The notes under the pieces are model-generated. The model was not told the origin of the DNA, did no database searches, and saw only the letters and a list, made by a program, of their open reading frames with translations. DNA of 34,387 bases from Candidatus Schekmanbacteria bacterium (lineage in GTDB: Bacteria; CSSED10-310; JACPHN01), in contig JACPHN010000100.1 in assembly GCA_016188575.1 (NCBI GenBank), forward strand, positions 1 to 34,387, written 5' to 3'. This document shows, piece after piece, positions 7,248 to 30,702 of the stretch. Made by a program: the position numbers and the translations under genes. How positions within the stretch are numbered: position 1 is the stretch's first letter; the number at the start of each line of letters is the position of its first letter.

Positions 7248-7888
7248 GGGGAGGTCCTCTCAGCGCCAGGAGTGCTTCGCATCGAGCTCATGTGCTCCGA
7301 CTGCATGATAGACATCCGCGAGCTACGCGTCAATCGCGTCCCGGGTCCATCTGAGGGCGTGGCGGGCGCCGCCACCCGCTTCGCCGCGCCCCGCCCCGGG
7401 GCGGCGGCACGCGCAAGCTCAGCCGCGCCATCGTGCGCTTGCAGCACCCCACGTTCCAGCGCATTGCGAAGCTCGCGGATATTGCCGGGCCACGCGTACG
7501 CGCCGAGCACCTCGCGGACACCATCCGCCAGACAAAGGTCGCCGCGGCCGAGCTCGCCGGCGAGTTGGCGCAACAGACTCGCGGCCAGGGGCCAGATGTC
7601 TTCGCGGCGTTCGCGAAGCGCGGGGAGCTCGATCGGAAAGGCACTGATCCGGTAGTAGAAGTCGGGGCGCAGTCTGCCCGTGCGCAGCAACTCCGACAGG
7701 TCGCCTTGGGTCGCGGCGATGAGGCGCACATCGATGTGGCGGTCCGCTACCTCCTCGCCGTCGCGGCAGCCCCGCGCGGCGGCGACCTCGTAGCCGCTGG
7801 CCATCAGAAGCTGCGAAAGCCGTCGCCGATACCCGTCGGCGCCGTCGATGAAGAGGATGCGCCCGCTGCACGTCAGTTGCGTGGTCAT
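7244..7888 (-). pseudogene. Internally deleted sigma-54 response regulator
   Basis: This 214-aa open frame is a collage of an NtrC-family regulator. Residues 9-40 match the first part of a receiver domain (RILFIDGADGYRRRLSQLL), but the acidic pocket is reduced to one Asp. After a junction near residues 42-50 the frame continues in the second half of the AAA+ domain: VRLIAATQGDL, FYYRISAFPIELPALRERREDI and WPGNIRELRNALE. Missing are the phospho-acceptor region, Walker A, the GAFTGA loop, Walker B and the C-terminal Fis-type HTH. Compared with the intact regulator at 10684-12060, about 230 residues are gone. The C-terminal ~55 residues are unrelated. It cannot be a working activator; it is either a decaying gene or a degenerate interaction partner. 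An in-frame TTG at 7939 is an alternative start. Its end is coupled to the lipoprotein gene. Confidence 0.75.
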
Positions 7889-7942
7889 GCCGCCATTACC
7901 GATAGGATCCTCAGGACACGGTAGACCGAGGGGCAGCAAATC

Positions 7943-8041
7943 TCAACGCGGAAACGGCCGCAAACACTTCGCCCTGAGAAGTCGTTCAGCGTCGGTCATC
8001 TCGGTTCTCAGAGAGCGGGCGCGAGCGCGTTGTTGCGCCAT
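7943..8041 (-). pseudogene. DUF559-like gene remnant
   Basis: The 32-codon frame reads MAQQRARARSLRTEMTDAER and then loses the family pattern within a few residues before a stop. The RA-x-x-LR-x-x-MT-x-AER-x-L pattern is the usual start of DUF559 (Vsr-like endonuclease fold) proteins, which normally continue for about 100 more residues with a conserved DFxC/E-x-DG core. None of that is present downstream. A purine-rich AGGGGGGAG lies just upstream of the ATG. I read it as the surviving 5' end of a broken gene. Confidence 0.5.
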
Positions 8042-8102
8042 TCCCAATCTCCCCCCTCTGTCCCCCCAAACGGGGCGGAGGTAAACGGGTACCTCGGCCA
8101 TT

Positions 8103-8139
8103 TGTCCGAGCTCGCTACATGGTGTCCGAATTTTGGACA
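8103..8139 (+). promoter_or_regulatory. Candidate enhancer (UAS) for sigma-54 activator
   Basis: TGTCCGA occurs at 8103-8109 and again at 8123-8129, exactly 20 bp apart (two helical turns). The second copy forms a dyad with GGACA (8135-8139): TGTCC-N7-GGACA. The site lies about 85-120 bp upstream of the -24 element, the usual place for an NtrC-family activator to bind. Binding by the regulator encoded at 10684-12060 is an inference. Confidence 0.5.
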
Positions 8140-8218
8140 ACGACAATCGAGGCCCCAACTTACTTCGCTGCGGGACCGCATGGCGCCGCACTTCCCCCAT
8201 CGCAGCGCCGACAATTGT

Positions 8219-8236
8219 TTGGCACCAATTTTGCAA
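8219..8236 (+). promoter_or_regulatory. Sigma-54 (-24/-12) promoter
   Basis: The sequence TTGGCACCAATTTTGCAA matches the consensus TGGCAC-N5-TTGCA with the invariant GG (8221-8222) and GC (8233-8234) at the required 12-bp offset. Transcription would start near 8246, giving a leader of about 90 nt before the ATG at 8338. It is the only -24/-12 match I found in a gene-upstream position in this window. Confidence 0.8.
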
Positions 8237-8337
8237 GTTCTGGCTCGGTTTGGCCCTCTGGAAGCTGTCTTCCTGAGGGAAGGAAATCGAAGCGGCCCTG
8301 ACCGTGGGGTACGCATGACGCTTCTGGAGGTCGTGAC

Positions 8338-10095
8338 ATGAACCAGTTGGCACCCATGGCGCCATCAAGGGCTGCCGTGCTCGTCCTGCTACTTGCCTGC
8401 ACGTGCGTTTTGCGACCAGTGGCGGCGGAAGAGATTGCGCAGACAGGAACCACAGTCACGGGGAAATCGGGGCTTTTCACGGTTCAATCCGCGGAAGGTC
8501 TTGGCCGTGGCGGTTTCAGTGTCGGTCTGTGGCTGGACGCGTATGATCGCGAGCCCGGCGAAATCGATCTCAAGACCGGCGCTCTGAGCGTGGCCTTTGC
8601 TCCCCTTCCCGACCTCGAGCTCAGTGTCGAGCTCCCTTACTTCCAGATCGAGGCCGACGGCACCGCCGCGGAACCGGCTAGCTGGGGCGGATTTTACGCG
8701 GACCGGAAGCTCACCCGGCGAGGCGCAGGTGATGTGTTCATGGGTGCGCGCTACGCCTTCCTCAGTCAACACCGCGGCGCCCCCCTCGGGGTCGGGCTAG
8801 GCGGCGACGTCAAGCTCCCCACGGCCGACGAGGAGAAGGGGCTGGGAACGGGCAGAACCGACTACGGCTTGACGGTGCTCGTCAGCAAGCAGGCGGGACC
8901 AGTCGGAATGCACTTCAACGCTGGCTACCTCATCACGGGCGACATGGACGGAGCGGACATCCCAGACGAGCTTCGCTACGGAGTGGGGATCGCGATTCCC
9001 GCTACAAAGCCGTTGCGGGGCATTTTCGAGCTCACCGGGGTGGGCTTTGAGGCGGGCGACGCGGCCCCCGACGATCCGTTGGACGCGACGCTGGGTCTGG
9101 AGTGGCAGCACAAAGGATTCGGCATCGGTGCCGGCGTGCGCCGGAACGTGCTGATTTCGGGCCACGGCACCGATGCGTGGGGTGGCGTCGCCTTCGTTTC
9201 CTACTGCCGCCCCCGTAACGGCCCGCCCACCGTCGCCCTACGAGCGGACCGCGCCACAGTGCCAGTGGGCGAGCTGGTTAGCTTGACCGCGGCCGCGAGC
9301 GATCCAGACGGCGACTCCCTGACCTATCTCTGGGACAGCTCCCGTGGCCGCGTCACTGGTGAGGGCGCCAACACGACCTGGAGGGCGGAGGACGATGCGT
9401 GGGTCGGCCCGGTGACCTTTACGGTCACGGTGGATGATGGCCACGGTGGCCGCGCCGATGACAGCCTGACGGTGCAGGTTACGCCGAGGCCGAACCGCGC
9501 CCCGCAGGCGCAAGTGACCGTCGCGACCAAGGTGCTCGCTCCGGGGGAGAGGACCGCCGTTCATTGCGCCGGTACCGACCCGGACGGCGACCCTCTGACC
9601 TACGCGTGGCGGCCCGAGGACGGCCAAGTGGAGGGTGAGGGCGAAAACATCACCTGGCATCTCGACGTCGCACGCACGGGCAACATCTCGATCACGTGCA
9701 CGGTTACCGATCCGGCCGGCTTGAGCGGTAGTGGCACGGACAGCACGCTGCTCAGAGTAATCGTCCCGCTTCCCGTGATTCGGTTTCCGGGGGCGCGCCT
9801 GGACAACATCGCGAAGGCGCAGCTCGATGACGTCGCGATTGCGCTCAACCGCCATCTCGACATCCGGCTGCGGCTCATCGGGCACACGGACACGACTGGA
9901 AATGCAAAGGCACAACACGAGCGCGGCATGGCGATGGCGACCGCGGTGCGAGACTACCTGGTCAAGACCCATGGAATCGATTCGGGGCGCATCGAAGTCG
10001 AGAGCAAGGGAGGAGCGGAACCGCTCGCCGACAACAAAACCGCAAGCGGAAGGAGGCAGAATCGGCGCGTGGAAATCATTCAGATGGAGGACTGA
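8338..10095 (+). CDS. OmpA-family protein: barrel, two PKD-like domains, OmpA C-domain
   Basis: This 585-aa envelope protein has a signal peptide (about 1-30, hydrophobic AAVLVLLLACTCVL). A beta-strand-rich region with barrel character follows (about 35-290). Two PKD/cadherin-like modules come next (about 294-381 and 386-478), each with the DPDGDxLTYxW signature. The C-terminal OmpA-type domain (about 480-585) contains LRLIGHTDTTGN and ends NRRVEI. In OmpA domains the Asp of GHTD and an Arg 15 residues later hold the diaminopimelate of peptidoglycan. Here the Asp is present but the Arg position is Met (HERGMAMATAVRDYL), so binding may be weakened. The predicted role is an outer-membrane protein with periplasmic spacers towards the wall. 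GGAGG at 8326-8330 supports the start. It is driven by the sigma-54 promoter at 8219-8236. Confidence 0.85.
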   Translation: MNQLAPMAPSRAAVLVLLLACTCVLRPVAAEEIAQTGTTVTGKSGLFTVQSAEGLGRGGFSVGLWLDAYDREPGEIDLKTGALSVAFAPLPDLELSVELPYFQIEADGTAAEPASWGGFYADRKLTRRGAGDVFMGARYAFLSQHRGAPLGVGLGGDVKLPTADEEKGLGTGRTDYGLTVLVSKQAGPVGMHFNAGYLITGDMDGADIPDELRYGVGIAIPATKPLRGIFELTGVGFEAGDAAPDDPLDATLGLEWQHKGFGIGAGVRRNVLISGHGTDAWGGVAFVSYCRPRNGPPTVALRADRATVPVGELVSLTAAASDPDGDSLTYLWDSSRGRVTGEGANTTWRAEDDAWVGPVTFTVTVDDGHGGRADDSLTVQVTPRPNRAPQAQVTVATKVLAPGERTAVHCAGTDPDGDPLTYAWRPEDGQVEGEGENITWHLDVARTGNISITCTVTDPAGLSGSGTDSTLLRVIVPLPVIRFPGARLDNIAKAQLDDVAIALNRHLDIRLRLIGHTDTTGNAKAQHERGMAMATAVRDYLVKTHGIDSGRIEVESKGGAEPLADNKTASGRRQNRRVEIIQMED

Positions 10096-14866: not shown

Positions 14867-15003
14867 CCCGAATCCACTGCCGGTGCGACTGCGAGCTGCG
14901 CGGGAAGCGCTTCACGAAGACCCCCCACCTCACTTCCCAGGCTTGCGGGGGAGGAACGGATGGGGCGCTGATGCGTCGACGTCAAACAGGCGGTGGAATC
15001 AGG
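14867..15003 (+). repeat. Palindromic intergenic element, copy B (137 bp)
   Basis: It begins CCCGAATCCACTGCCGG and ends CAGGCGGTGGAATCAGG, imperfect inverted repeats. Interior blocks GAGCTGCGCGGGAAGCGC and CGTCGACGTCAAACAGG match copies A, C and D. The last 22 bp overlap the 3' end of the GNAT gene, supplying its final codons (LIPPPV) and stop. Confidence 0.7.
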
Positions 15004-15446
15004 CCGACCCCAAGCCTGGCATTTCTGGCCAGCACAAAGGCCTGGGGATGCCGCTCCAGGCCGAGGCACTCGTAATAAGCGACGGCGCCTGGAGCCGACA
15101 GCAGAATGAGCTTGCACCGCGGCCCGAGCTCTTTCCGCGTCCGCGACAGGAGCTCCGTGCCCATGCCGCGCCTCTGGTAGGCGCGATCAACGGCAAGGTC
15201 TGACAAGTAGCAGCAGTAGCAGAAATCGGTGACTGACCGGGCGATGCCGACAAGCAGCACGCCGTCCCAAGCGGTCACCGTCAGGTTGCTGTTTTCGATC
15301 ATGCCGCGGATGCACTCCTGATCGTCTACCGGTCGCCGCTCGGCCAGCCCCGAGCGCCGCAGGATGCCGGCAAACTCTTCGGGATCGACCGGCGCGTTCA
15401 CCCGGTACCCGACGTTTATTTCCGCCACATCTGACCTCACTCCCAT
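14982..15446 (-). CDS. GNAT-family N-acetyltransferase
   Basis: This 154-aa protein fits the GNAT fold. The N-terminal helices include EFAGILRRSG. The strand VTAWDGVLLVGIARSVTD leads to the acetyl-CoA core LSDLAVDRAYQRRGMGTELL, where RRGMGT is the Q/R-x-x-G-x-G/A pyrophosphate loop. LILLSAPGAVAYYECLGLER is the usual motif B, with AVAYYE-x-LG. The substrate is unknown. Its start overlaps the 3' end of the giant membrane protein gene by 10 bp, so the two are co-transcribed. A GTG at 15428 preceded by GGAGTGAGG is an alternative start. The C-terminus runs into repeat copy B, suggesting insertion of the repeat altered the last residues. Confidence 0.85.
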   Translation of the reverse strand: MGVRSDVAEINVGYRVNAPVDPEEFAGILRRSGLAERRPVDDQECIRGMIENSNLTVTAWDGVLLVGIARSVTDFCYCCYLSDLAVDRAYQRRGMGTELLSRTRKELGPRCKLILLSAPGAVAYYECLGLERHPQAFVLARNARLGVGLIPPPV

Positions 15447-18400
15447 TGCGCCAGGCGCGCCCGCAGCTCACGATAGCGCGCCAGCACCTGGTCGCGCCGC
15501 ACGTTCAGATACACCATGCCGCCGAGAACCGTGCCGCCAAGGCCGATCAACATCATGCCCCACGCCAGTCGCGGCATATCCTGCGCGTACAGAACCGGCT
15601 GCATGACGACATTCAGCGCGAAGAATGCCGTCCCCGCGTAAAGGAATGGTCGAATGCGCAGGACGATGCCCATGACCACACCGGCAAGGCTCATTGCGGC
15701 CAGTGCGGCGGGGTACAGCAGGGGATGCTGCTCGGATCCGACCAAGACGTGAAAGGTGGAGGACAGGTACAGGCCCGTGATCGTCCAGAGCCGCAACTGA
15801 AACAGTTGCTGTGGTCCCAAGTCCGCCTTGTGCACCTGGATCAACCCGAGGATGGAGAGCGCCAGGGGGATCGCGTAGAGCTGCGCCTCCGATCGCGTCT
15901 CGTCGGTAAAGAACCAGAACAGTGCCGCACCGAGGTTGAACATGGACGCGGACAGGTAGAAGGGCCAGCGGCGCGCCAGTTGTTGGCCGATCCCGGCGTA
16001 CAGCAACGATGCGAACAGGGCGATGACGGCGGTGCCCCGGACGGCGCTGTCGGAGGTTTCGAAGGCGGTGACCAACGCGAGGATCGGCAAGGTCGCCGAC
16101 AGGATCATGGCGGGGCGGCGGAACACGGAATGGCGCTCGCGGTCCACCAGTGCGCCAAGGCCAAGAAAGGCAAACGCCGCCAACAACGTGAAGACGCCGT
16201 CAGCGAACGACCCGGCATCGAACAGCTCGGCTTCGCCGCGCAGGTACGGGTAGAGCGCGCAGCACAGCGCCTGACCGACGAAGGCGAGCCGCTCGCTGTG
16301 GCGGAGAACCGCGGCACGGAGGAAAAAGACGGCGGAGGCCGCCAGGGTAACGACGAAGACGCCTTGCTCGGCGGCCGCCGGCGCACTGGCAGCCGGCGAC
16401 AGCACGGATGCCAGCACGAGCGCGAGTGCAAGCCAGCCGAACGCGACGTCCGTCCCTGGCGACGCCGCCGATGCTCTGCGGCGCGGTGAGGTGAGGGCGA
16501 ACCGGCGCGCGTCCAGGGAGGCGAGCCAGGCCACCAGAATCGCGGCCAGGGCTCCCAGCAGCGGCGCCGCGGCCACGCGCAACCCGCCGAGCCCGGCGCG
16601 GGGAGCCAGCGCCACGAAGCTGCACGCCAGGCCCAGCCACAAGAGAACCGCCTGCAGCAGAGTAGCTCCTCTTCCCCACTCCAGGCGGCGCGGGTCGGCC
16701 CCCGTCAGCGTCGCGATGGCGGCGGCCGCGAGCAGCGAAGGGACGATCAACACCGAGACCGGCGCAAACGCCGCCAGCGATTCCGTCCACGGCGTCCGCC
16801 AAAACAGCAAGCCGGTTTCAGCCACTGCCAGAGCGTACCCACCCGCGACCAGCGCGATCGCCCACGCCGGCAATGTCCGCGGCCAGGGCGGCTCGGCGCT
16901 GCCCGCGTGGCGCCACCACGACGCGAGGCCGATCGCTCCGGCGGGCCACAGCCAGCACGGCAGGCCTGGACCCGGCACGAACACCGCCGCCGCCGCAAAG
17001 CCGCATACGCCGGCCGCCACGGCGCCGGGAATGGGCTTCCCACCGCCGCGCCGCGCCGCCAGCACGAGAGCCGCCGCCGTCGCCATCGCCAGCACGGCAC
17101 CGGCAAGCGCATTCGCGAGCAAGGGCCTCATTCCCTTGCTCAGCACCACCGGCACCCAGAGATCCACCGATGCCGCGCTACACGCCGCGACCGCCGCCAG
17201 TGCGCAGACGGCGGACCACTGCGCCAGCGCCGAAAACGGCGGGTCGCCGCGCCTTCCCCGGCCGGCGCTCGCGAGCACCAGCGCGATCAGCGCCGCCGGG
17301 GCCAGCCCCAGCGTGCTGCCCAGCATGATATCCGCTGCTCCCGAGGCGCGCGGCAGGATATCGGCACCCATGAGCGCCACGACACCCGGGCACAGCAGCG
17401 CTGCCGAGGTGACGGCGAGAACGCTTCGCGCCCGCTTTCCGATTACCAACTGCCAACAGACAATCGCAGCGATCGCCGAGCATGCGATCCACGTTACTCC
17501 GCGCGCCGGAGACGCCGGCACGGGCCATCCTCGATCCACGAGCACGAACGACGCCCAGGCCGCTCCGATCGCGACCGACAGGATTCCGTAGTCGCGGCAC
17601 GCGCGCCGGTAGTAGCGCTCGCGGTCCGGAAGTACCGTCGCCACTGCGACTGTCGCCAACACCCCAAGAACCGCGAGAGCCCAAAGCGTCCCGCTGCCCA
17701 AGAAGTCAATCACGCCCGGCCGTGACGCGGCGTGTTCCAGGGTGAGCAGCACCGCGGTGAGCGACAGGTAGGTCACGACCACCTGCAGCGAGCGGCTGGC
17801 GCCCCGCTTCCAGAGACGTTCCGAAAAGGTCCCGACGCGCCCTACCGCGATCATGCAGGAGGAAAGAACGGCTCCTGCCACCGCGGCGAGCCATGAGCCG
17901 CGAGCCGCTCCCACTTCTGCGACGCAGAACGCGCAGAACCCGACAATGGCGACGAGCGCGCACGCGTTGAACAGGGCGCTCCGCGCGTGCCGCCAGATCG
18001 TCGCGATGACCCACTGCCGATTCGCGGCGTCATCGGCACCGTCCAGCCACCGGGACAGCTCCGCCAGTAGCGCGATCCACAGACTGGCCACGGCGATGAC
18101 GGGCCAGAGAGCCTCATTGCGATTGAGCAGCAGCACTTCGCCGCTGCCCGCAATAGCCAGAATCCCTCCTGCCGCGACATCGAGCGCCACGAGGTGAAGG
18201 AATGACCGGCTTCGCTGCACCACGGCAGCGATGCTGCCCAAGGCTCCCGTAGCCACCAGACCGGTTCCGAGGAGCGCCAACGCCGCCCGCGAGCTGCCAG
18301 GCACGGCGGCTGCGTGCACCGCCGAGGCCCAGGCCGCGGCAAGGATGAGACCGATACCCGCCGCGCTCTTGTATGACGAGAGCTCCCGCTCGTCGCGCGC

Positions 18401-21400
18401 GCCCGGCGCGGTCGAGCGGCTCGTCGTGCGCAGCACGAGCAGCGACCACCCCAGCACAAGGGCGGTAGCCGCGAGCGGGTGAGCGACAGGTGCGTGCTCG
18501 GCGCTCAAGACTTTGGAAAGCGGCTGGGCGAGGTAGTGAGCGGCCGCGGCCGCGGGCACGGCCAACAGCCACAAGGGCAGGGCCCGGCCGTCGGTATCGG
18601 CCTGATCGGCTGCGACGGCGGCGGCGGCACCGAGCGCACCCGCGAGCGCGATGGATAGCGCCACTGCGTCAGGGAAGCCCCACACCGCGCCCGTCGCCAG
18701 CAGCACGACGCCCGCGCCGCCCAGCACCTGCGCCGTTTCCCGGTGGATGAGCTCCGGCGCGTGCTGGGCCACGACCAGCGCCGCCGCCGCGCAAAAGCCG
18801 GCCGCGGCGCCGTACAAGGCCAGCAGAGCCGCGTGTCCGGACACGCCGGTCCAATGCGCGACGGCTCCCATCCCGAGGTGCCCCACGCCGACAAAGCCCA
18901 CGAGCAACGCCCACGCAGCACAGGAGCGCCGCGCGCTCGCAGCCTCCTCGAGCCGGGTCGCCGCCAGCGCCCACAAGCAGCAAGCGATAAGGAGAGCAGC
19001 AGCTCCGGGCCGGATCGCCGGCCACGTCAGCGGGTGTGTGCCGGGATGACCCAGAACGAAGGAAGCACCGCGGGCCAGCTCCAGTACGGTCACGCCCGTG
19101 GCCCAGGCGAGCGCGAGCAGGCCGGCGAGACGAAAATGCCGCTCGCCGCGCGGCAGATACCGCGGTGCGGACAGCACGCAGAAGGCCCCAAGAGATACCG
19201 CAGCCCAGAGTGCCACCATGTCCATCGCATCATCGCCCCCGAGCCCCACCCCTGTGGCACGATCGATCGCCAGCAGCACCGCGAGCCATGAAATCCAGGC
19301 GACGACTGCGTGCAGCGTGCGACTTCCACCGACGTTCCACAGAGCTTCGGCGCGCGTGCCAGCCCGGCCTGCAGCCAGCAGGATAGCGGTCACCACCCAT
19401 GCCGTCGCGGGGTCTGGCGGAAACCAGGCCGCGAGAGCGAACAGCAGCAGCGGAGCGCACGCCATGTTGAACAGCGCACCGCGAGTCTCCCGCAAGATCC
19501 GGGCAACGTGTCCGCTTGCCTCGGCAGTCTCTTCGTCTCCACGCAACCGGCGCGCGCCTTCTGCGAGGACAAACAGCAAGACGCTCGTCCCGCAGATCAT
19601 CCAGGCGATATCGGCATTCGTGCCGCGCGCGGGCACCTTCACAAGCAAGGACAGGGCGGCGAGCGCGAGGCCGGCCACGATAGCAAGGGCGACCAGGTGA
19701 GCGAATAGCCTGCCTCGCTTGACCACTGCGGCAACGCTGCCGAACGCGCCGGCGAGCGCCAGGCTGACGCCGAGAAAAGGAAAGGGGTCGTTATTGTGGG
19801 CGCCCTGGACCGCGGCAACGTGGACCACAGACGCCCAGATCACGGCGAGTACGAGGCCGATGCGCAGCGAGCGGGCCGTCGCGTCCTGGCGCGACGGTTC
19901 CGGGCCGAGCCGCATGACACCTGGCGCGCGCGCTTCTTTCAGCACCATCACCGACCACGCTAGCACCAGCGCAGTCGTGGCGAGCGAGTGCAACATCGCG
20001 TCCAGCGGCGCAGCGAGGACGTCGGAGAACAGATCCGTGGTCAGCCGGTGGGCGATCACGGCCGCCGGCAATGCCAACAGCCAGATCGGCAGGCGGCGCG
20101 GCGCGAACCGCGAGAAATCCGCCATAACCGCGGCTCCAGCGCCAAGAGCCGCCGCGACGGCGGCAAACGATCCCGCCGGGAGCTGCAATGGAACGGCGGC
20201 AACCAATCCGAGCAGCAGGATCAGGCTGAGCACCCCCAGTCCCTGCGCGGTGGCGCGGTCAAAGATCGCCCGGTCCGCGCTGCTCGCCAGGATCAGCCCC
20301 GCAGCCGCGCAAAAGCCCGCGGCGGCGGCGTACAAGGCAGCGAGCTCCGGCAGCCCCCTGACGCCGATACCGTGCGCCACCGAGACTTGCAGGAGCTGCG
20401 CGACGCCGACAAGAACCGCGAGCAGTGCCCAGGAACCACAGCCGCGCTGCCAGGCCCGCGATGAATTGCGACCAGACGCCCAGCGCGAAAGTCCGTAAGC
20501 GATGGCAAATCCGGCGAGACCTGGCTTGATCGCGGCCCAGCTCAGCAAGCCGCTGTCGCCGTTGCTGCTCAATACGGCGATGGCGTAGTCACCCAGCGCA
20601 GTGGCTGCGATCATGGTAGCCCCGACCAGCGCCACGAGGCCGCCAGTGCGGACCGGCGGCCCGTAGAGCTCCGCTGACAGGCGCGGCGCCGCCCAGAGCA
20701 ACGCGCCTCCCGCCACCGCGGCCGTCAATCCCCCGGGCGCAATACCCAGGACCGCCTCCAGCACCGCACCGCTCACCGCCGCTGCGACCAATGCCGCGTA
20801 GACGAGTAGTTGCCCATAAGCACGGCGCGCCGCGACGAGCAGAATCAGCGCGCACAGCGCCAGCGGGCCGACCACAGCCAGAAGCGCCGGCCAAAGCGGC
20901 CCGGCATCGGTGGCTACGGTGGCGAGGGCGCCGATGGCGGCAATCGCGACGGTTCCCCGCACCAGCACCGCTCTGAACCCCTGCGGGCGCGCGGCGGCGC
21001 TGACCCGTCGCTCGACCAGCAGCAGCGCGGCGAGGCAGATCAGTGCCGCTAGCTCGAGGCCCGGCGGCAGCCACAGTCGGGGCAGCCCGGCGAACAGGGC
21101 AGCGACAACCGCCGCGAACGTCGCCCATAGCAGGAGCGGAGCGTCGAGCCAGAGCGCGGCAAACGCCGCCAGCGCTCCATAGCAGAATAGCCCGGTAGCC
21201 GCCGCCGGCCATGCGGACAGCACCAACGCCAGACCGACCAGCGCCACGGTGAGCGCTGTTCGCCGCGTCAGCTTCCTGAGCCGCGCCACACAGCCAGCTT
21301 CCCACTGCGCTTCGGCCACTTCCTGTTGACCGCTCGCGATCGCGGTCCGCGCGTCTTCGTCGGCGTCGGGCGACAGCTCCTTCTTCAGCGTCTCGACGCC

Positions 21401-23755
21401 GCGGCGCAGCTCGGATACGCGCTGCAAGCGTGAGGCGAGCGCCGTGCCAAGCCGTCGATCCAGCACGAGAGCGAGGGCGATCGGAATGCACAGACTGGTG
21501 CCGAGCCGCGCGGGCGACGCCCAACCCGTAGACGAGAACGCGCTCACCCACGCGCCGAAGGCGCCCGCAAGCGCGAGCAGCCCCATGCCCGGCGACAGCG
21601 TGCGCCGGGTCAGCACGCCGTACGCCACGGCGCCCGCGGCGAACGCAATCATGGCGACCAGTGGCGCGAAAACGCCTCCCCCAGGCGCCGCGGGAAAGGC
21701 GCCCGGTGCCGCGAGAAGGTAACCGAGCACCGCCAAAGCGTAGGCCGCGATGGTCAGGCGGGAGGCGCGCCCAACGCGCTTGCGCTTGCCGCCGAGATCG
21801 ATGTCCAGGTGGCACAGCATGGTCCCCGCGAGGACGAGGACGGGCGCATAGCTAGACGCGCCGGGAAAGGCGGCGTCCAGGTGCAGATGCCCGGCGCTCA
21901 CCAGCGCGCTGAACGCCAGGATCCCGGCGAACATCAGAAAATATCGGCGCCCCAGCGCAGTGATCCCGGAGGTTCGCCGCTGCAGGCCGGAAAGTACGTA
22001 CCAATAGAGCCCGAAGGTCATATATGTCGTGAGGATGAGCACCGCCGCACCCGTATCACCCCGGTGCCTGGGCACGAGCGGCAAGGCCGTCTGGATCGCG
22101 CCGAAGCCCAGGAGGCCGGCAGGAACGAGCCTGGCCAGGTCGCGGTGGGCCGCGGCACCGCTCACAACCCCGATCCACGCCGCCAGGCCAGCGGTGAGCG
22201 CCGCCGCGGCCAGGAAGGAGAGGAGCCGTGCCGTCCAGCCGGCCTTGTCGCTGTCGATCACGAGCATTTCCGTGACAAGAGCGAACGAGATGGGCACGAG
22301 CAAGAGCGAAATGGTGAAGAAGACCCACCGCGTCAGCTCGATCTTGTACTTGGCGTAGAGATGTCGCGCGGGAAGGAAGAACACACCCAGCGACGCGACC
22401 TCCAACACTGTGAGCACCACCCACAGGCGCGAGAACGGCGATTCCGCGGTGCGCAACCACGCCCACGAAGCGACGTACGCAAACCCAGCCACGACGCTCA
22501 GGGCGCCGATCAGCCATCCCACGTTCTGCACGAGAAACCCGCGCCACCAGTGAGCACCGTCGGCAACTTCGTCGATGATGCGCTCGAGCGCGGATGGCCG
22601 CCGCGGCTCGGCCACCCCGGGGAAGCCGGCCGCGGCCGTCACGACGGGGGCTGTGACGGCAGGCACAGGCGCCTGCCCCAGTAGCTCCGCGGCCACCTCG
22701 ACTGCGTCAAGCACACTCGTGGGGTCGGGCAAGGGCGGTGGCTCGAGCGGCTGGTCGGACGCGCCCTTCGCCGCAGGCGGCGACGGCGGCGAAGCAAACG
22801 CGTATGCGGGCGGAACCTCTGCGGCAGGCAGCGGCGGCGGCTGGACGACCGCCGGCGGCACCAGGTACATCCACGCACTCTCCGCAGCGCGGCGATAGGC
22901 GAGCGCCTTTTGCTCCTGTGGCGCGGTTGCCGCGAAGTTTCTGGCCGCCACGCGCACGGCGAAATCCGCGAGCCGGCTGGAGCTCTTGAGCCCATGGGCA
23001 ACTTCTGGGACTACCCCGCGCAGCACCGACAGGTCGCGAAGGAGCTGAACGAAGCCTGCAAGCAGCGACTCGCCGGAATCCGGTGGGACGCGGCCAGGAG
23101 GCTCGGCGAGTGAAGCGTACAAGTGGGAGAGCAGCGTGCCGAGCGCCTCGCCGAGGTAGCCGCGCCGGACGAGCCACGCGCAAGCGCGGGCCGCGGCGGC
23201 GCGGGTCGGAAACTCGGGGGGCCCGGGACTTCCGGGGGCAGTCGGGCTCGCCGCGAGCCGCATTGCCTGCTCCATCTTGCCGCGCGTCTGCTTTGCCAGA
23301 AACGCCCGCAGGTCACCGGCGCGCGGGCTCGCAACCGTCCCCGCGCCCACCGCGCTCAGAACGGCCCCGGCCCCGTAGGCCGTTTCGCCCACGGCGAGGA
23401 GTGCCTGGTTCCGGCTGGCCCGTGCCAGCGAGCCGCCGGCGGCGGCCAGCGCTGCGCGCGCGCGCTCAAGCCGCTCATGGCCTGCAGCAACGGTCATGAC
23501 ATGGTCCGCGTCCGCGCCCGTAAGCCCGCCCTCGGCGGCCAGCGCCGGCAGCACCTCGCTCAGGGGAACCTCGCGGGCGATGCGCGCCGTACGTTCCGCG
23601 ACCGCCAGCACCCCCTCCTGTCGGCGCCACAGTGCCGCCATCAGCGCCTGCTGCTGCCCGGTGGTCAGCGCACCCGTGCTTGCCAGTCTGGACAGGACGT
23701 GCTCGACGCGAACCAGATCCGCGAGTTGTTCGAGTGGATCTCCGTGCTGCGCCAT
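15437..23755 (-). CDS. Giant polytopic membrane protein (2772 aa)
   Basis: Residues 1-about 405 are soluble: helical N-terminal segments, then a Pro/Ala-rich linker (about 295-385). From about residue 407 (FLVQNVGWLIGALSVVAGF) to the end the chain is an almost unbroken series of hydrophobic helices, several dozen in all. The main break is a charged helical segment near 775-820 (SRLQRVSELRRGVETLKKEL). Residues about 1074-1578 and 1579-2081 are a tandem duplication. Paired landmarks include AIKPGLAG/AIRPGAAA, LYAAAAGFCAAAGL/LYGAAAGFCAAAAL, LPIWLLALPAAV/LPLWLLAVPAAA, FGSVAAVVKRGR/LGSIAAVVQRSR and GTRAEALW/GTFSERLW. The first membrane helices recall DUF2339-type proteins, but the size is far beyond that family. 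No catalytic motif was seen. The ATG lacks a strong ribosome site. It shares a transcript with the GNAT gene. Confidence 0.85.
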   Translation of the reverse strand: MAQHGDPLEQLADLVRVEHVLSRLASTGALTTGQQQALMAALWRRQEGVLAVAERTARIAREVPLSEVLPALAAEGGLTGADADHVMTVAAGHERLERARAALAAAGGSLARASRNQALLAVGETAYGAGAVLSAVGAGTVASPRAGDLRAFLAKQTRGKMEQAMRLAASPTAPGSPGPPEFPTRAAAARACAWLVRRGYLGEALGTLLSHLYASLAEPPGRVPPDSGESLLAGFVQLLRDLSVLRGVVPEVAHGLKSSSRLADFAVRVAARNFAATAPQEQKALAYRRAAESAWMYLVPPAVVQPPPLPAAEVPPAYAFASPPSPPAAKGASDQPLEPPPLPDPTSVLDAVEVAAELLGQAPVPAVTAPVVTAAAGFPGVAEPRRPSALERIIDEVADGAHWWRGFLVQNVGWLIGALSVVAGFAYVASWAWLRTAESPFSRLWVVLTVLEVASLGVFFLPARHLYAKYKIELTRWVFFTISLLLVPISFALVTEMLVIDSDKAGWTARLLSFLAAAALTAGLAAWIGVVSGAAAHRDLARLVPAGLLGFGAIQTALPLVPRHRGDTGAAVLILTTYMTFGLYWYVLSGLQRRTSGITALGRRYFLMFAGILAFSALVSAGHLHLDAAFPGASSYAPVLVLAGTMLCHLDIDLGGKRKRVGRASRLTIAAYALAVLGYLLAAPGAFPAAPGGGVFAPLVAMIAFAAGAVAYGVLTRRTLSPGMGLLALAGAFGAWVSAFSSTGWASPARLGTSLCIPIALALVLDRRLGTALASRLQRVSELRRGVETLKKELSPDADEDARTAIASGQQEVAEAQWEAGCVARLRKLTRRTALTVALVGLALVLSAWPAAATGLFCYGALAAFAALWLDAPLLLWATFAAVVAALFAGLPRLWLPPGLELAALICLAALLLVERRVSAAARPQGFRAVLVRGTVAIAAIGALATVATDAGPLWPALLAVVGPLALCALILLVAARRAYGQLLVYAALVAAAVSGAVLEAVLGIAPGGLTAAVAGGALLWAAPRLSAELYGPPVRTGGLVALVGATMIAATALGDYAIAVLSSNGDSGLLSWAAIKPGLAGFAIAYGLSRWASGRNSSRAWQRGCGSWALLAVLVGVAQLLQVSVAHGIGVRGLPELAALYAAAAGFCAAAGLILASSADRAIFDRATAQGLGVLSLILLLGLVAAVPLQLPAGSFAAVAAALGAGAAVMADFSRFAPRRLPIWLLALPAAVIAHRLTTDLFSDVLAAPLDAMLHSLATTALVLAWSVMVLKEARAPGVMRLGPEPSRQDATARSLRIGLVLAVIWASVVHVAAVQGAHNNDPFPFLGVSLALAGAFGSVAAVVKRGRLFAHLVALAIVAGLALAALSLLVKVPARGTNADIAWMICGTSVLLFVLAEGARRLRGDEETAEASGHVARILRETRGALFNMACAPLLLFALAAWFPPDPATAWVVTAILLAAGRAGTRAEALWNVGGSRTLHAVVAWISWLAVLLAIDRATGVGLGGDDAMDMVALWAAVSLGAFCVLSAPRYLPRGERHFRLAGLLALAWATGVTVLELARGASFVLGHPGTHPLTWPAIRPGAAALLIACCLWALAATRLEEAASARRSCAAWALLVGFVGVGHLGMGAVAHWTGVSGHAALLALYGAAAGFCAAAALVVAQHAPELIHRETAQVLGGAGVVLLATGAVWGFPDAVALSIALAGALGAAAAVAADQADTDGRALPLWLLAVPAAAAAHYLAQPLSKVLSAEHAPVAHPLAATALVLGWSLLVLRTTSRSTAPGARDERELSSYKSAAGIGLILAAAWASAVHAAAVPGSSRAALALLGTGLVATGALGSIAAVVQRSRSFLHLVALDVAAGGILAIAGSGEVLLLNRNEALWPVIAVASLWIALLAELSRWLDGADDAANRQWVIATIWRHARSALFNACALVAIVGFCAFCVAEVGAARGSWLAAVAGAVLSSCMIAVGRVGTFSERLWKRGASRSLQVVVTYLSLTAVLLTLEHAASRPGVIDFLGSGTLWALAVLGVLATVAVATVLPDRERYYRRACRDYGILSVAIGAAWASFVLVDRGWPVPASPARGVTWIACSAIAAIVCWQLVIGKRARSVLAVTSAALLCPGVVALMGADILPRASGAADIMLGSTLGLAPAALIALVLASAGRGRRGDPPFSALAQWSAVCALAAVAACSAASVDLWVPVVLSKGMRPLLANALAGAVLAMATAAALVLAARRGGGKPIPGAVAAGVCGFAAAAVFVPGPGLPCWLWPAGAIGLASWWRHAGSAEPPWPRTLPAWAIALVAGGYALAVAETGLLFWRTPWTESLAAFAPVSVLIVPSLLAAAAIATLTGADPRRLEWGRGATLLQAVLLWLGLACSFVALAPRAGLGGLRVAAAPLLGALAAILVAWLASLDARRFALTSPRRRASAASPGTDVAFGWLALALVLASVLSPAASAPAAAEQGVFVVTLAASAVFFLRAAVLRHSERLAFVGQALCCALYPYLRGEAELFDAGSFADGVFTLLAAFAFLGLGALVDRERHSVFRRPAMILSATLPILALVTAFETSDSAVRGTAVIALFASLLYAGIGQQLARRWPFYLSASMFNLGAALFWFFTDETRSEAQLYAIPLALSILGLIQVHKADLGPQQLFQLRLWTITGLYLSSTFHVLVGSEQHPLLYPAALAAMSLAGVVMGIVLRIRPFLYAGTAFFALNVVMQPVLYAQDMPRLAWGMMLIGLGGTVLGGMVYLNVRRDQVLARYRELRARLAQWE

Positions 23756-26516: not shown

Positions 26517-27611
26517 ATGGCGAGCTGCCGACTGACAACGCCCGTTCGCAGGCAAGACGATGCGGTCCGCGATGGACAGGCGCGGCCGAGGGCCGTTCCT
26601 CAGGCCCGCCTGCTGCGCGGACTCGCCCTTGCTGCCGTGTTGGCGGTCACGGTGTCGGCGGTCACCGTGTCGGGAGTCTCATGCCGCAGTGCGCGGCCTC
26701 GCGAACCCCCGGATGCTCTCCGCGCCCCGCTGGAGCGGGCGACGTCCGCTGCGGCACCATCTCCTACAGCAACGCCGACGCCGGCGCCCGAGGCGACCTT
26801 CACCTCCGTGGTGGTTCCCAGCTCGCCAACCGTGCCCTGGCCGTCTCCATCGCCAATCGCCGCGGAGCCGACGCTGACGAGGAGCCCACAGCCAGTCAAG
26901 ACGCGCACCATGCCCGCGGGCTTGCGCCCCGGTGCGCCGTCAACACCGCGGCCCGATACCTCCACGGCAGTGGTGCCAACGCCTACCGGCGCGCCTTCTA
27001 CGGGCCGGATCGAGGTCCGGGTGCGCGTCTCCACCGCCGGCAAGCCAGGGCCGGGCGCAAACACGGCCGTGTGGCTACCCGAGATCCGGAGCCCTGGGGC
27101 ACCACGCGGGGCGGCCGCGAAGGTCGCGCAAAGCAACAAGGAATTTTCGCCGCGCGTCTCGATTGTGCGCGCCGGCAGCGAGGTCGCCTTTCCAAACCTC
27201 GACCGCATCTTCCACAACGTTTTTAGCTTGTCGCCGACCAAATCGTTCGACCTCGGCCTGTACAGAAACGGGGCATCGAAATCCGTGGCTTTCGACAAGC
27301 CTGGCCTGGTCCATGTCTTCTGCAACATCCACTCCCACATGATTGCCTACCTCCTCGTTGTGGATTCGGATATCTACGGTATCACAGATCAAGCCGGCAA
27401 CATCACGCTCGAGCGCGTACCCGCCGGAATGCAAACGGTCTCCGGATGGAGCGCCGAGGGGGAAGAATGGTCGCGCTCGGTCGTGGTCAAGGCCGCCGGC
27501 ACGGCGGAGCTCGAGGTGACACTGGACGCGACCGGGCATCGCGAGACGCCTCACAAGAACAAGTATGGAAAGGACTATCCGCCTCCCGATGACGAGCAGG
27601 ACAGATACTAG
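26517..27611 (+). CDS. Exported amicyanin-like cupredoxin protein
   Basis: This 364-aa protein has a hydrophobic export segment (about 33-55) ending at Cys56, possibly a lipoprotein signal though the box is weak. A Pro/Thr/Ser-rich linker (about 57-165) leads to a cupredoxin-like domain (about 166-295). Type-1 copper ligands are visible: His233 in FHNVFS, then Cys269-N-I-His272-S-H-Met275. The C-x2-H-x2-M spacing is that of amicyanin. The C-terminal part has a carboxypeptidase-regulatory-like beta module (GNITLERVPAGMQTVSGW) and a charged tail. It resembles proteins often labelled methylamine utilisation protein, though no methylamine dehydrogenase gene is nearby. It starts the operon with two kinases; the next gene overlaps it by 23 bp. 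A -10-like TACAAT lies at 26448-26453. Confidence 0.82.
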   Translation: MASCRLTTPVRRQDDAVRDGQARPRAVPQARLLRGLALAAVLAVTVSAVTVSGVSCRSARPREPPDALRAPLERATSAAAPSPTATPTPAPEATFTSVVVPSSPTVPWPSPSPIAAEPTLTRSPQPVKTRTMPAGLRPGAPSTPRPDTSTAVVPTPTGAPSTGRIEVRVRVSTAGKPGPGANTAVWLPEIRSPGAPRGAAAKVAQSNKEFSPRVSIVRAGSEVAFPNLDRIFHNVFSLSPTKSFDLGLYRNGASKSVAFDKPGLVHVFCNIHSHMIAYLLVVDSDIYGITDQAGNITLERVPAGMQTVSGWSAEGEEWSRSVVVKAAGTAELEVTLDATGHRETPHKNKYGKDYPPPDDEQDRY

Positions 27612-29811
27612 CAGTGTCGCGCTCGGCGCGACGGTGGCGCTCGCCCCCTCACCCGCGGGCCTCGCCGCACCGCCACCTGCCGAAACGGCCGCGGTGCCGC
27701 CGGCGCGTTCTCCGGGGTTGGCGGTTCAGTTCTGTGCCGCAGCGGTCCTGCTCCTGCTCGCGACGATTGCTGCTGTGCTCGGTCTGGCGAGCTGGCAGAC
27801 GAACCGAATCGCGGAGGACGCAATCCGTGCGTCGCTGCGCAAGGTTCCGCCGGTAGTCGACACGTACCGCTCCGACCTGGGGCTGCGCCGGCTCGATCAG
27901 GTGCGATCGGTGGCCGAAGCGCCGGGGACCAAGTCGTTGTTTGCGGGCGAGGTGAACGTGGCGACCCGGTACGACTTCGCGCGCGACACTGCCGCGCTGC
28001 TTGCGGCGAGCACGGTCTTCCTGTTCAATCAGGAGGGAGACCTGCTCGCCAGGAGCGATCGACCCGAAGGCGAGGGAGTGGGGAAATCGTTCCGGGGGGC
28101 CAGGTGGGTGGTCGAACCGCTGGAGACAGCGGCAGGAGCGACCGCCATGATCCGAGAGGAAGACCGTCTTTCGCTGACGGCGTCCGCGCCCGTTGTCGTG
28201 GGCAGCGGGGACGGCGCCGCGGTGATCGGCGGCCTCGCCGCGACCTTCGCGCTGGACGAGGACGAGGCGAGGACGATCCGGGATCTGACGGGAGGAGAAG
28301 TCGGCTTTCTCATTGACATGGCGAAACGCGGCGAGTCGCCGCAGGTTGCCTTCGGGGTGGGCACGAAGGCGTTCGCCGCCGCCGAGCTGGTGCCGCGCCT
28401 CCTCGCGGTGCCTGGGGGTTTGAGCACCCTGTTCGGCAGCGTCGAGGTGCTCGGCCCGGTCGACATCGAGGCACAGGGCGATGTCAGGATCGTAGTGGCG
28501 CTACCGATCACGAGTGCTGCGGGGGAAACCCTCGGCGCGGTCGTCGTGGCGCGCTCCAGGGCGCAGGAGGCTGTTGCATTCCGCAGTATTCGTAAGGCGC
28601 TGCTGTTAATCGGCGGACTGCTGCTCCTCGTAGCATTTCCCGCGGCGGCAGCAATGGGCCACCGGATCGCCTCACCGCTACGCGAGCTGGCCGTCTCCGC
28701 TGAGGCCATTCGCGAAGGCCGCCTGGACATCGCGCTTCCGGACGGTGGCCGGGGCGAGGTCGGTGTTCTCGCCCGTGCCTTCGCCGCTCTGGTCGCGGAC
28801 CTGAGAGAGAGAAACTCGCTCGAGAAGCTGCTGCTTGATCTCGAGGCACAGCGAGCGGACGGGCAAGCGAAGACGGCGCCGGTGCGCGACTGCGGAGTCG
28901 CTGTCGAGCGGCTCGCGGCCGGCGAGGTGCTCGCCGATCGGTACGAGATCATCGCCATGCTCGGGCGCGGTGGCATGGCCGCCGTTTACCGGGCTCACGA
29001 TCGCGAGCTCGAGGAGGACGTGGCCCTCAAGGTTCTGCTGCCCGATCGCTTTGCCGGTGCCTCCGGTCTCACCGAGGGGGTCGAACGGCTCAAGCAGGAA
29101 ATCCGGCTCGCCCGCCGGATCAGCCACCCGAATGTGGTGCGCGTCCATGACGTGGGGGAGGCGCGGGGAAGCCGGTTCATCTCGATGGAATGCGTGCCCG
29201 GCCAGACCCTCACCCAAATCCTCTCGCGCCAGCGCCTCCTCGCGGGCGAGCCGGGGCTGCAGGTCATCAAACAGCTCTGCCGTGGTCTCGGTGCCGTCCA
29301 CGCTCAGGGGATCGTCCATCGCGACGTCAAACCGCAGAACGTGATGGTCCTGCCGAATGGGGCGGTAAAGCTGATGGACTTCGGCATTTCGCGGCTCCAG
29401 GCGCCCCAGCGCTCGGGGACGGGCGAGCTGATAATCTCGGGCACGCCCGCCTACATGAGCCCCGAACAGGTGGAGGGACGGCGGGATCTCGACGCGCGCA
29501 GCGACATCTACTCGCTCGGGATCGTCATGTTCGAAGTGTTTACGGGCAGCGTGCCATTCGCGGCCCCCATCGCGATGGCGGTCCTTCACGCGCACCTTTC
29601 GGCGTCACCGCCCCGTCCGCGCGACCGCAATCCGAACCTGTCGGCGGAGCTCGAGGAGCTCATGTTGCAGTGTGTGGCAAAGGCCCCCGAGAACCGACCC
29701 CAGAGCGTCCGGCTGCTCGAGCGGCGGCTGCGCGATCTGCCGGCGGCCCTGCCCGTCGCCATGCCGCGCCCTGGACCGCCGCATCCCCTGGCCGCGCCGG
29801 CGAGACACTAA
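27589..29811 (+). CDS. Transmembrane sensor Ser/Thr protein kinase
   Basis: This receptor-like kinase of about 740 aa starts with a Pro/Ala-rich cytoplasmic tail. TM1 is LLLLATIAAVLGLA. A periplasmic double-Cache/CHASE-like sensor of about 260 residues follows (FLFNQEGDLLARSD, LPITSAAGETLGAVVVARS). TM2 (LLLIGGLLLLVAFPAAAA), a HAMP linker (ASPLRELAVSAEAIREGRLD) and a C-terminal Hanks-type kinase complete it. Kinase motifs are LGRGGMAAVYRA, VALKVLL, HRDVKPQN, DFGIS and GTPAYMSPEQ, so it should be active. Sensor-TM-HAMP coupled to a Ser/Thr kinase is unusual, since HAMP normally feeds histidine kinases or cyclases. ATG 27565 is an alternative start. It overlaps the cupredoxin gene and is followed 21 bp later by a second kinase. 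Confidence 0.88.
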   Translation: MTSRTDTSSVALGATVALAPSPAGLAAPPPAETAAVPPARSPGLAVQFCAAAVLLLLATIAAVLGLASWQTNRIAEDAIRASLRKVPPVVDTYRSDLGLRRLDQVRSVAEAPGTKSLFAGEVNVATRYDFARDTAALLAASTVFLFNQEGDLLARSDRPEGEGVGKSFRGARWVVEPLETAAGATAMIREEDRLSLTASAPVVVGSGDGAAVIGGLAATFALDEDEARTIRDLTGGEVGFLIDMAKRGESPQVAFGVGTKAFAAAELVPRLLAVPGGLSTLFGSVEVLGPVDIEAQGDVRIVVALPITSAAGETLGAVVVARSRAQEAVAFRSIRKALLLIGGLLLLVAFPAAAAMGHRIASPLRELAVSAEAIREGRLDIALPDGGRGEVGVLARAFAALVADLRERNSLEKLLLDLEAQRADGQAKTAPVRDCGVAVERLAAGEVLADRYEIIAMLGRGGMAAVYRAHDRELEEDVALKVLLPDRFAGASGLTEGVERLKQEIRLARRISHPNVVRVHDVGEARGSRFISMECVPGQTLTQILSRQRLLAGEPGLQVIKQLCRGLGAVHAQGIVHRDVKPQNVMVLPNGAVKLMDFGISRLQAPQRSGTGELIISGTPAYMSPEQVEGRRDLDARSDIYSLGIVMFEVFTGSVPFAAPIAMAVLHAHLSASPPRPRDRNPNLSAELEELMLQCVAKAPENRPQSVRLLERRLRDLPAALPVAMPRPGPPHPLAAPARH

Positions 29812-29832
29812 CCGCATTCTGGAGGTGGCAGA

Positions 29833-30702
29833 ATGGAGACGCCAAGGCTCGCGGGCCCGCCCCCCCCACCCTCCTGCGCCGACCAGCCGCTGGCGAATCG
29901 CTACAGTCTAAGGCATGAGCTGGGCAGCGGCGCGAGTGGAACGGTATTCCTCGCGCGCGATCGGGTCGCGCGTAGAGACGTGGCCCTGAAGCTCATCCCG
30001 GACCAGGTCCTCGGCACAGACGGCGACCAGCCGCGCGGGCGCGCCTTGCGAGAGGCCCGGGTGCTGGCGCGTTTGCACCACCCCGGAATTCCCCGGCTCT
30101 ACGAGATCGGGGAGTTTCCCGGCGGCCTGTTCATCGCCATGGAGCTCATCGAGGGAACGCGACTCGATGCGCTGATCGGCGAGCGGACGCCACTTCCGGA
30201 AGCGATGGCGGTGCACCTGGCGCGGCAGGCGCTCGCCGCGCTTGGCCACGTCCATGCGGCAGGCGCGCTGCACCGAGACTTGAAACCCGAAAACTTCATT
30301 CTCGGGCGAGAAGACCGTGTCTACCTCATCGACTTCGGGTTCGCCACGCACGCCGGGGCGATGCCGCTGACGATGGAAGGGCAGACCCTGGGGACGGTCG
30401 CCTACATGGCGCCGGAGCAGCTTCGCTGTGAGGTGAGCCCGGCGAGCGACCTGTACAGCGTCGGCATGATCCTCCATGAGCTCCTCACCGGCGCTCTCCC
30501 CTGGCGCGGATGTCGGACCGAGAATGAGCTTGCGCTCGCGATCATGCTTCGCTTCGGAGATGCTCTGCCCGCGCCCTCGAGAGCTGTGTCGCCCGGCCTT
30601 TGGGAGGTGGTCAAGAAGGCGTGCGCCGCTGAACCCGAGGAGCGGTACGCCACCGCCGAGAGTTTCGGGGAGGCCCTTCGCGCGGTTGCCGAGAAGTCGT
30701 AA
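29833..30702 (+). CDS. Soluble Ser/Thr protein kinase
   Basis: This 289-aa protein is a stand-alone Hanks-type kinase domain with a short Pro-rich N-terminus. All catalytic elements are intact: glycine loop GSGASG (31-36), Lys53 in VALKLI, Glu74, HRDLKPEN (147-154), DFG (167-169) and APE (193-195). No membrane segment or extra sensor is present, so it is cytoplasmic. GGAGGTGG sits just upstream of the ATG. It lies between the receptor kinase and the TPR protein in a tight operon, so it may be a downstream kinase in a cascade or may share substrates with the receptor. The two kinase domains are only moderately similar, so this is not a recent duplication. Confidence 0.92.
   Translation: METPRLAGPPPPPSCADQPLANRYSLRHELGSGASGTVFLARDRVARRDVALKLIPDQVLGTDGDQPRGRALREARVLARLHHPGIPRLYEIGEFPGGLFIAMELIEGTRLDALIGERTPLPEAMAVHLARQALAALGHVHAAGALHRDLKPENFILGREDRVYLIDFGFATHAGAMPLTMEGQTLGTVAYMAPEQLRCEVSPASDLYSVGMILHELLTGALPWRGCRTENELALAIMLRFGDALPAPSRAVSPGLWEVVKKACAAEPEERYATAESFGEALRAVAEKS

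Follow-up and report, generated by a model that had tools for sequence, protein, structure and literature searches.

A giant predicted membrane protein with an internal tandem duplication, and its unnamed family in several bacterial phyla

The window analyzed here, a 34,387-nucleotide stretch of DNA from Candidatus Schekmanbacteria bacterium (contig JACPHN010000100.1), encodes a predicted membrane protein of 2772 residues. Profile comparison shows that this protein belongs to an unnamed family of giant membrane proteins, and comparison of its members shows that conservation between phyla is confined to the two ends, with a variable middle. Within the variable middle, the window protein carries a tandem duplication of about 505 residues.

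Build of the window protein and its tandem duplication

The 2772-codon frame begins with ATG, contains no internal stop codons (Table 1) and has no second copy in its own 9.2-Mb genome. Helix segmentation with a home-made predictor, which was given no topology information as input, placed about 400 soluble residues ahead of 75-76 predicted membrane helices, with about 20 helices before the duplication, 16 in each copy and 23-24 after it. The helix count is approximate, as 75-76 helices were obtained at low penalties, a slightly higher penalty gave 74 and broke the charge alternation, and an earlier version of the predictor gave 56-78. Lysine and arginine summed over alternate loops numbered 28 versus 127 (0.10 versus 0.24 per residue), as would be expected from a correctly counted series of helices. 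A sequence-only reading of this DNA had described a protein of this size with a soluble N-terminus and several dozen hydrophobic helices, and the topology prediction agrees with that description.

Table 1. Coordinates of the giant gene, the segments of its product and the adjoining gene in the window.
Feature	Coordinates	Strand	Description or basis
Giant membrane protein gene	15437..23755	-	Intact frame; stop codon 15437-15439; single copy in genome
N-terminal soluble region, residues ~1-400	22556..23755	-	Helical start (LASTGALTTGQQQALMAALWRRQ) and Pro/Ala-rich linker
First membrane block, residues 402-493, family-wide DUF2157-like head	22277..22552	-	Profile of relatives
Membrane region preceding duplication, residues 412-1035, ~20 predicted helices	20651..22522	-	Helix segmentation
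Copy 1 of tandem duplication, residues 1036-1541, 16 predicted helices	19133..20650	-	Self-alignment and helix segmentation
Copy 2 of tandem duplication, residues 1542-2047 (similarity extends to 2073), 16 predicted helices	17615..19132	-	Self-alignment and helix segmentation
Membrane region past duplication, residues 2048-2441, no third copy	16433..17614	-	Comparison with copies
Conserved C-terminal module, residues 2442-2772, motif LRIRPFLYAGT, terminal WE	15440..16432	-	Profile and relatives
GNAT acetyltransferase gene	14982..15446	-	Overlaps stop of giant gene by 10 bp

Self-alignment paired residues 1036-1557 with residues 1542-2073 at 217 of 505 identical positions (43%), with a Smith-Waterman score of 722 compared to a mean of 104.6 (sd 17.9) and a maximum of 163 in 200 locally composition-preserving shuffles; no further pair of segments rose above the shuffles. 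The landmarks AIKPGLAG and AIRPGAAA, at positions 1075 and 1580, fall in successive copies, and the same number of helices was predicted in each copy. The two copies are barely alignable as DNA (best local score 32 over 1518 bases), and the duplication is therefore no assembly artefact. These comparisons show that the duplication, which the sequence-only reading had paired by eye, is real. That reading had also pointed to a third start-like segment, SPARGVTWIACSAI, at position 2082, and for this we found no support. Residues 2074-2125 scored like shuffles against the start of either copy (p = 0.29 and 0.99), a profile search of the residues after the duplicated part gave an E of about 1, and the weak similarity found for 2040-2125 (p = 0.01) comes mostly from a tail, 2040-2073, that the pairwise alignment already includes.

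The duplicated unit matched no relative, and nothing in the middle of the cyanobacterial members matched it above reversed-profile controls. An AlphaFold2 model of the unit, made from a two-row alignment, had a pLDDT of 41 and was discarded.

An unnamed family with two conserved ends

The full window protein gave no significant match to Pfam or NCBIfam and no sequence match to PDB chains, transporters included, at E values up to 1, consistent with the earlier claim that it resembles no characterized family. Full-length searches with the window protein retrieved no relatives, and residues 400-720 retrieved only a weak 50-residue match. The last 293 residues, when used as a query on a diverse genome sample, recovered clear relatives with E values down to 5e-24, and these matches end open frames of 1277-2521 aa. 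A C-terminal profile built from relatives with the window left out scored 195 bits on the window protein, versus a shuffle maximum of 9, and the C-terminal feature of the family (R-x-R-x-F/Y-L-Y-x-G and a terminal W) is present. The conserved first membrane block following a soluble N-terminus is present as well. Here the corresponding profile of relatives, again with the window left out, scored 19.5 bits at residues 402-493 versus a maximum of 12.0 in 200 shuffles; pairwise matches of this block were to L148-L151, including L148 to window residues 387-453 (37%, E 1e-7). The earlier statement that no family of this architecture is known therefore needs correcting, as the protein has hundreds of relatives in a large unnamed family. 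No Pfam or NCBIfam model for the family was found in scans of the window protein and its relatives, and our literature search yielded neither a description of the family nor anything relevant on DUF2339. The family is apparently undescribed, and its members have surely already been sequenced and stored as hypothetical proteins.

DUF2339 (PF10101), which had been suggested as a lead, is a large predicted membrane protein with a general resemblance in its many membrane helices after a soluble start. It had no match at E values up to 1 in the window protein and none in the relatives scanned, and no DUF2339 gene was found in the window's genome, leaving this lead unsupported.

Across nine diverse members the invariant residues of the C-terminal module are P, P, G, R, G and W, which look structural; there is no set of acidic, His or Cys residues among them that is typical of a catalytic or ion-binding site.

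In the case of the N-terminal end, 8 of 23 family N-termini matched DUF2157 (PF09925), the best with 29.2 bits (E 9e-7), none of them reaching the curated cut-off of 32.4 bits, and this Pfam model had no match in the window protein itself. The likeness lies in a short soluble segment followed by the first membrane block, in the same order as in the family, whereas the 146 positions of DUF2157 cover neither the long body nor the C-terminal module. The membrane helices of LiaF, which is part of the PSP/Lia stress-sensing system, are also labelled DUF2157 (PMC11237479). Many relatives carry at the N-terminus either a CxxC...CxxC zinc ribbon or a short helical segment, LLEGLDxWLRLGLISDAQV. The window protein has only something like the latter: its helical start, LASTGALTTGQQQALMAALWRRQ, is similar, as judged by eye, to the GLIS-Q segment in members from cyanobacteria. 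The zinc ribbon is present in several relatives and absent from the window protein and the cyanobacterial members, and is thus a variable feature of the family and not a defining one.

The family as defined comprises L030-L037, L038-L117 and L118-L159. Scanning with the motif [LW]R[IV]R[APT]FLY[LAV]G found 169 relatives, of which 80 were kept; these come mainly from cyanobacteria (Nostoc, Calothrix, Scytonema, Fischerella, Microcystis and others), followed by Planctomycetota, and include one Blastocatellia (Acidobacteriota) and one Candidatus Contendobacter (Pseudomonadota). Sampling of genomes by phylum found the family in 36 of 146 genomes from the phylum to which G054 belongs, cyanobacterial by its place in the tree, and in 18 of 149 from that of G279, 86 of 193 from that of G035 and two of eight from the window's own phylum. 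We infer that the phylum of G279 is Planctomycetota, since the tree places its member L033 among named representatives of that phylum; that of G035 is probably Myxococcota, on G+C and gene content among others. By these matches the family is found in Cyanobacteria, Planctomycetota, Acidobacteriota, one Pseudomonadota metagenome-assembled genome and a probable Myxococcota group. Hundreds of bacterial genomes, including many filamentous cyanobacteria, carry such a very large membrane protein. Nearly all relatives found are encoded by uninterrupted genes, and length, which varies widely across the family (mostly ~1200-2700 aa), is stable within groups.

A tree of the C-terminal module has two large groups. 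The window protein stands beside the Pseudomonadota (Contendobacter) member and apart from its phylum-mate L034, a placement on long branches from which we claim no transfer. L156, whose genome (G323) is assigned to the phylum of G035, clusters with Planctomycetota and Acidobacteriota, a position that suggests transfer between phyla.

A variable middle and recurrent duplication of helix blocks

The profile of the cyanobacterial middle gave no significant match to the non-cyanobacterial relatives tested (whole-protein E of 2 or worse), whereas the C-terminal profile matched the same relatives with E values of 1e-11 or better. Cyanobacterial members themselves differ rather little in length (mostly ~1200-1400 aa), and their middle is fairly well conserved; profile comparison within them revealed no ancient short repeat above reversed-profile controls.

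Similar in-frame duplications were observed elsewhere in the family. In two related myxobacterium-like genomes, a 313-aa block that was duplicated very recently occurs twice in tandem with 94% identity in L149 (residues 1267-1896; 900 of 939 bases identical) and 95% identity in L151 (residues 1257-1892), and L154 has a single copy of that block, ~67% identical to the L149/L151 block. A membrane block of ~160 residues occurs in three tandem copies in L077 of Microcystis wesenbergii (residues 731-1215) and in two in L085 of Microcystis aeruginosa (residues 730-1053). Compared with L077, about one unit is missing from L085, and the two proteins are 94-95% identical elsewhere, so that the alignment indicates a change of copy number between close relatives. 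L156 contains a duplicated pair of ~250-290 aa with 46% identity. Duplications thus occurred in at least four lineages with units of different size (505, 313, 160 and ~250-290 aa), and we regard in-frame duplication as a habit of the family because similar events recur outside the window protein. It is nonetheless sporadic: most relatives have no recent duplication, and those that do are a few of about 100 examined. Apparent repeats in L034 and L153 proved to be low-complexity stretches of the soluble part. Predicted helices per copy were 16 and 16 in the window protein, 12 and 12 in the 313-aa pair, 4 and 4 in the 160-aa blocks and 6 and 8 in L156; in the first three cases the copies have an even number, which keeps the topology of the downstream part.

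AlphaFold2 predicted an all-helical structure for the cyanobacterial member L049 (1199 residues, 44 alignment rows) with a mean pLDDT of 78.7 and a pTM of 0.47, and in this model the antiparallel helices appear to be stacked in an extended array and not packed into a compact bundle. Foldseek and VIA-align comparison to the PDB returned soluble helical-hairpin solenoids and not transporters, with a best Z of 11.6. These matches are weak (query-normalized TM-score at most 0.19, near the top; Z within the range of unrelated helical repeats) and reflect generic helical solenoids, no structural relative being found by either program. Piezo channels, which are eukaryotic and have 38 helices in repeated four-helix units, offer a comparison in the way a protein might work, as they too are very long chains of repeated membrane helical units; however, one relative gave only an insignificant match to them (E 0.16), and no pore module was identified in the family.

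Possible functions and gene neighborhood

We propose that the protein may serve the cell envelope as a membrane scaffold or sensor platform of adjustable length rather than as a transporter, a reading to which we give about an even chance. It is favored because the ends are conserved, the middle is variable, in-frame duplication is recurrent and no conserved catalytic pattern is seen. The variable run would form a ribbon-like structure of helical hairpins lying in the inner-membrane plane. This ribbon would space the two conserved ends, or keep them together, along with any partner bound by the soluble head; in relatives, this head is a zinc ribbon or short helical domain. The run lengthens by in-frame tandem duplication of helix blocks, and its length could change without functional loss; the soluble head and the C-terminal module would do the specific work, and there would be no defined substrate path. 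The cyanobacterial members qualify this proposal in two ways. They contain no ancient repeat, so that a ribbon of equivalent hairpins is suggested by the structural model only, and their constant length and conserved middle argue against a free spacer, which would not need them. The choice between transporter, scaffold and envelope machine had been left open by the sequence-only reading, and the evidence leans to one of the latter two.

It is more tentatively possible that these proteins represent a class of membrane-embedded helical solenoids, with length set by duplication of helix blocks, that act as an adjustable ruler or a tension-bearing inner-membrane scaffold in large-genome bacteria; to our knowledge, no such class of duplication-lengthened membrane solenoids has been described so far. 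As a scaffold, the protein would rank with the longest chains known to be built in a membrane. The recent block duplications (copies at 94-95% identity, and Microcystis proteins with or without one block) make it testable whether block number matters and what is held together by the conserved ends.

Several other explanations were considered. The head and N-terminus might signal envelope stress or membrane state in response to strain on the ribbon or to its binding of a lipid or a protein. DUF2157 labels the membrane helices of LiaF, which belongs to a stress-sensing module (PMC11237479), and the DUF2157 resemblance of 8 of 23 N-termini, the zinc ribbons or short helical domains of relatives and the NlpC/P60 or SH3 lipoproteins that adjoin family genes in myxobacterium-like genomes are all consistent with such a role. 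However, the DUF2157 scores stay below the curated cut-off, two-component or Psp/Lia genes do not recur beyond the level of common signaling genes, and ~75 helices would be left unexplained, which makes a dedicated sensor unlikely. We consider a transporter, channel or lipid-moving protein somewhat less probable still. Its core would lie in the conserved C- and N-terminal modules, and the middle would consist of accessory helices. Multi-helix proteins in general are most often transporters, and this one is polytopic with a conserved C-terminal membrane module, but no similarity to any transporter was found in Pfam, NCBIfam or the PDB, the invariant residues look structural and the middle tolerates a gain of 4-16 helices.

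The duplications could also be accidents in an over-grown protein, tolerated since the extra helices do nothing, and their sporadic occurrence and unequal unit sizes would fit with neutral growth. We regard this as the least probable of these explanations, as the 8.3-kb frame is still open though divergence has left its copies 43% identical, the two have retained an equal predicted helix number and the charge alternation, and genes in nearly all relatives found are uninterrupted, with lengths stable within groups.

No constant gene partner was found throughout the family among the fetched loci, and two-component or Psp/Lia genes did not recur beside it beyond the level expected of common signaling genes. 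In the window, the GNAT acetyltransferase gene is probably co-transcribed with the giant gene, yet none of the relatives fetched has a homologue of it nearby, and the suggested co-occurrence is rejected as a conserved link. An NlpC/P60-type lipoprotein gene lies directly downstream in about 18 of 30 myxobacterium-like loci, and also in L032, L149, L151, L153 and L154, with a gap of about 41 bp where measured (L149 and L154). In the paralogue L037 the next gene encodes an SH3-domain lipoprotein. The coordinates of these downstream genes are L149:12724-13656, L154:12042-13190 and L037:18787-19623. The lipoproteins, confined to part of one group, hint at a link to the cell envelope and a possible partner.

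Farther away in the window, a sigma-54 activator at 7244-8368 (minus strand) is apparently in pieces, with one frame limited to the final part of the ATPase domain plus its lid, and the adjoining frame having no Pfam match. An open frame at 26517-27611 has a Pro/Ala-rich start, a possible copper-protein-like C-terminal part and no Pfam match. It lies ahead of two consecutive Ser/Thr protein kinase genes at 27565-30702 (plus strand), the first of which has a HAMP domain and a weak Cache-like match.
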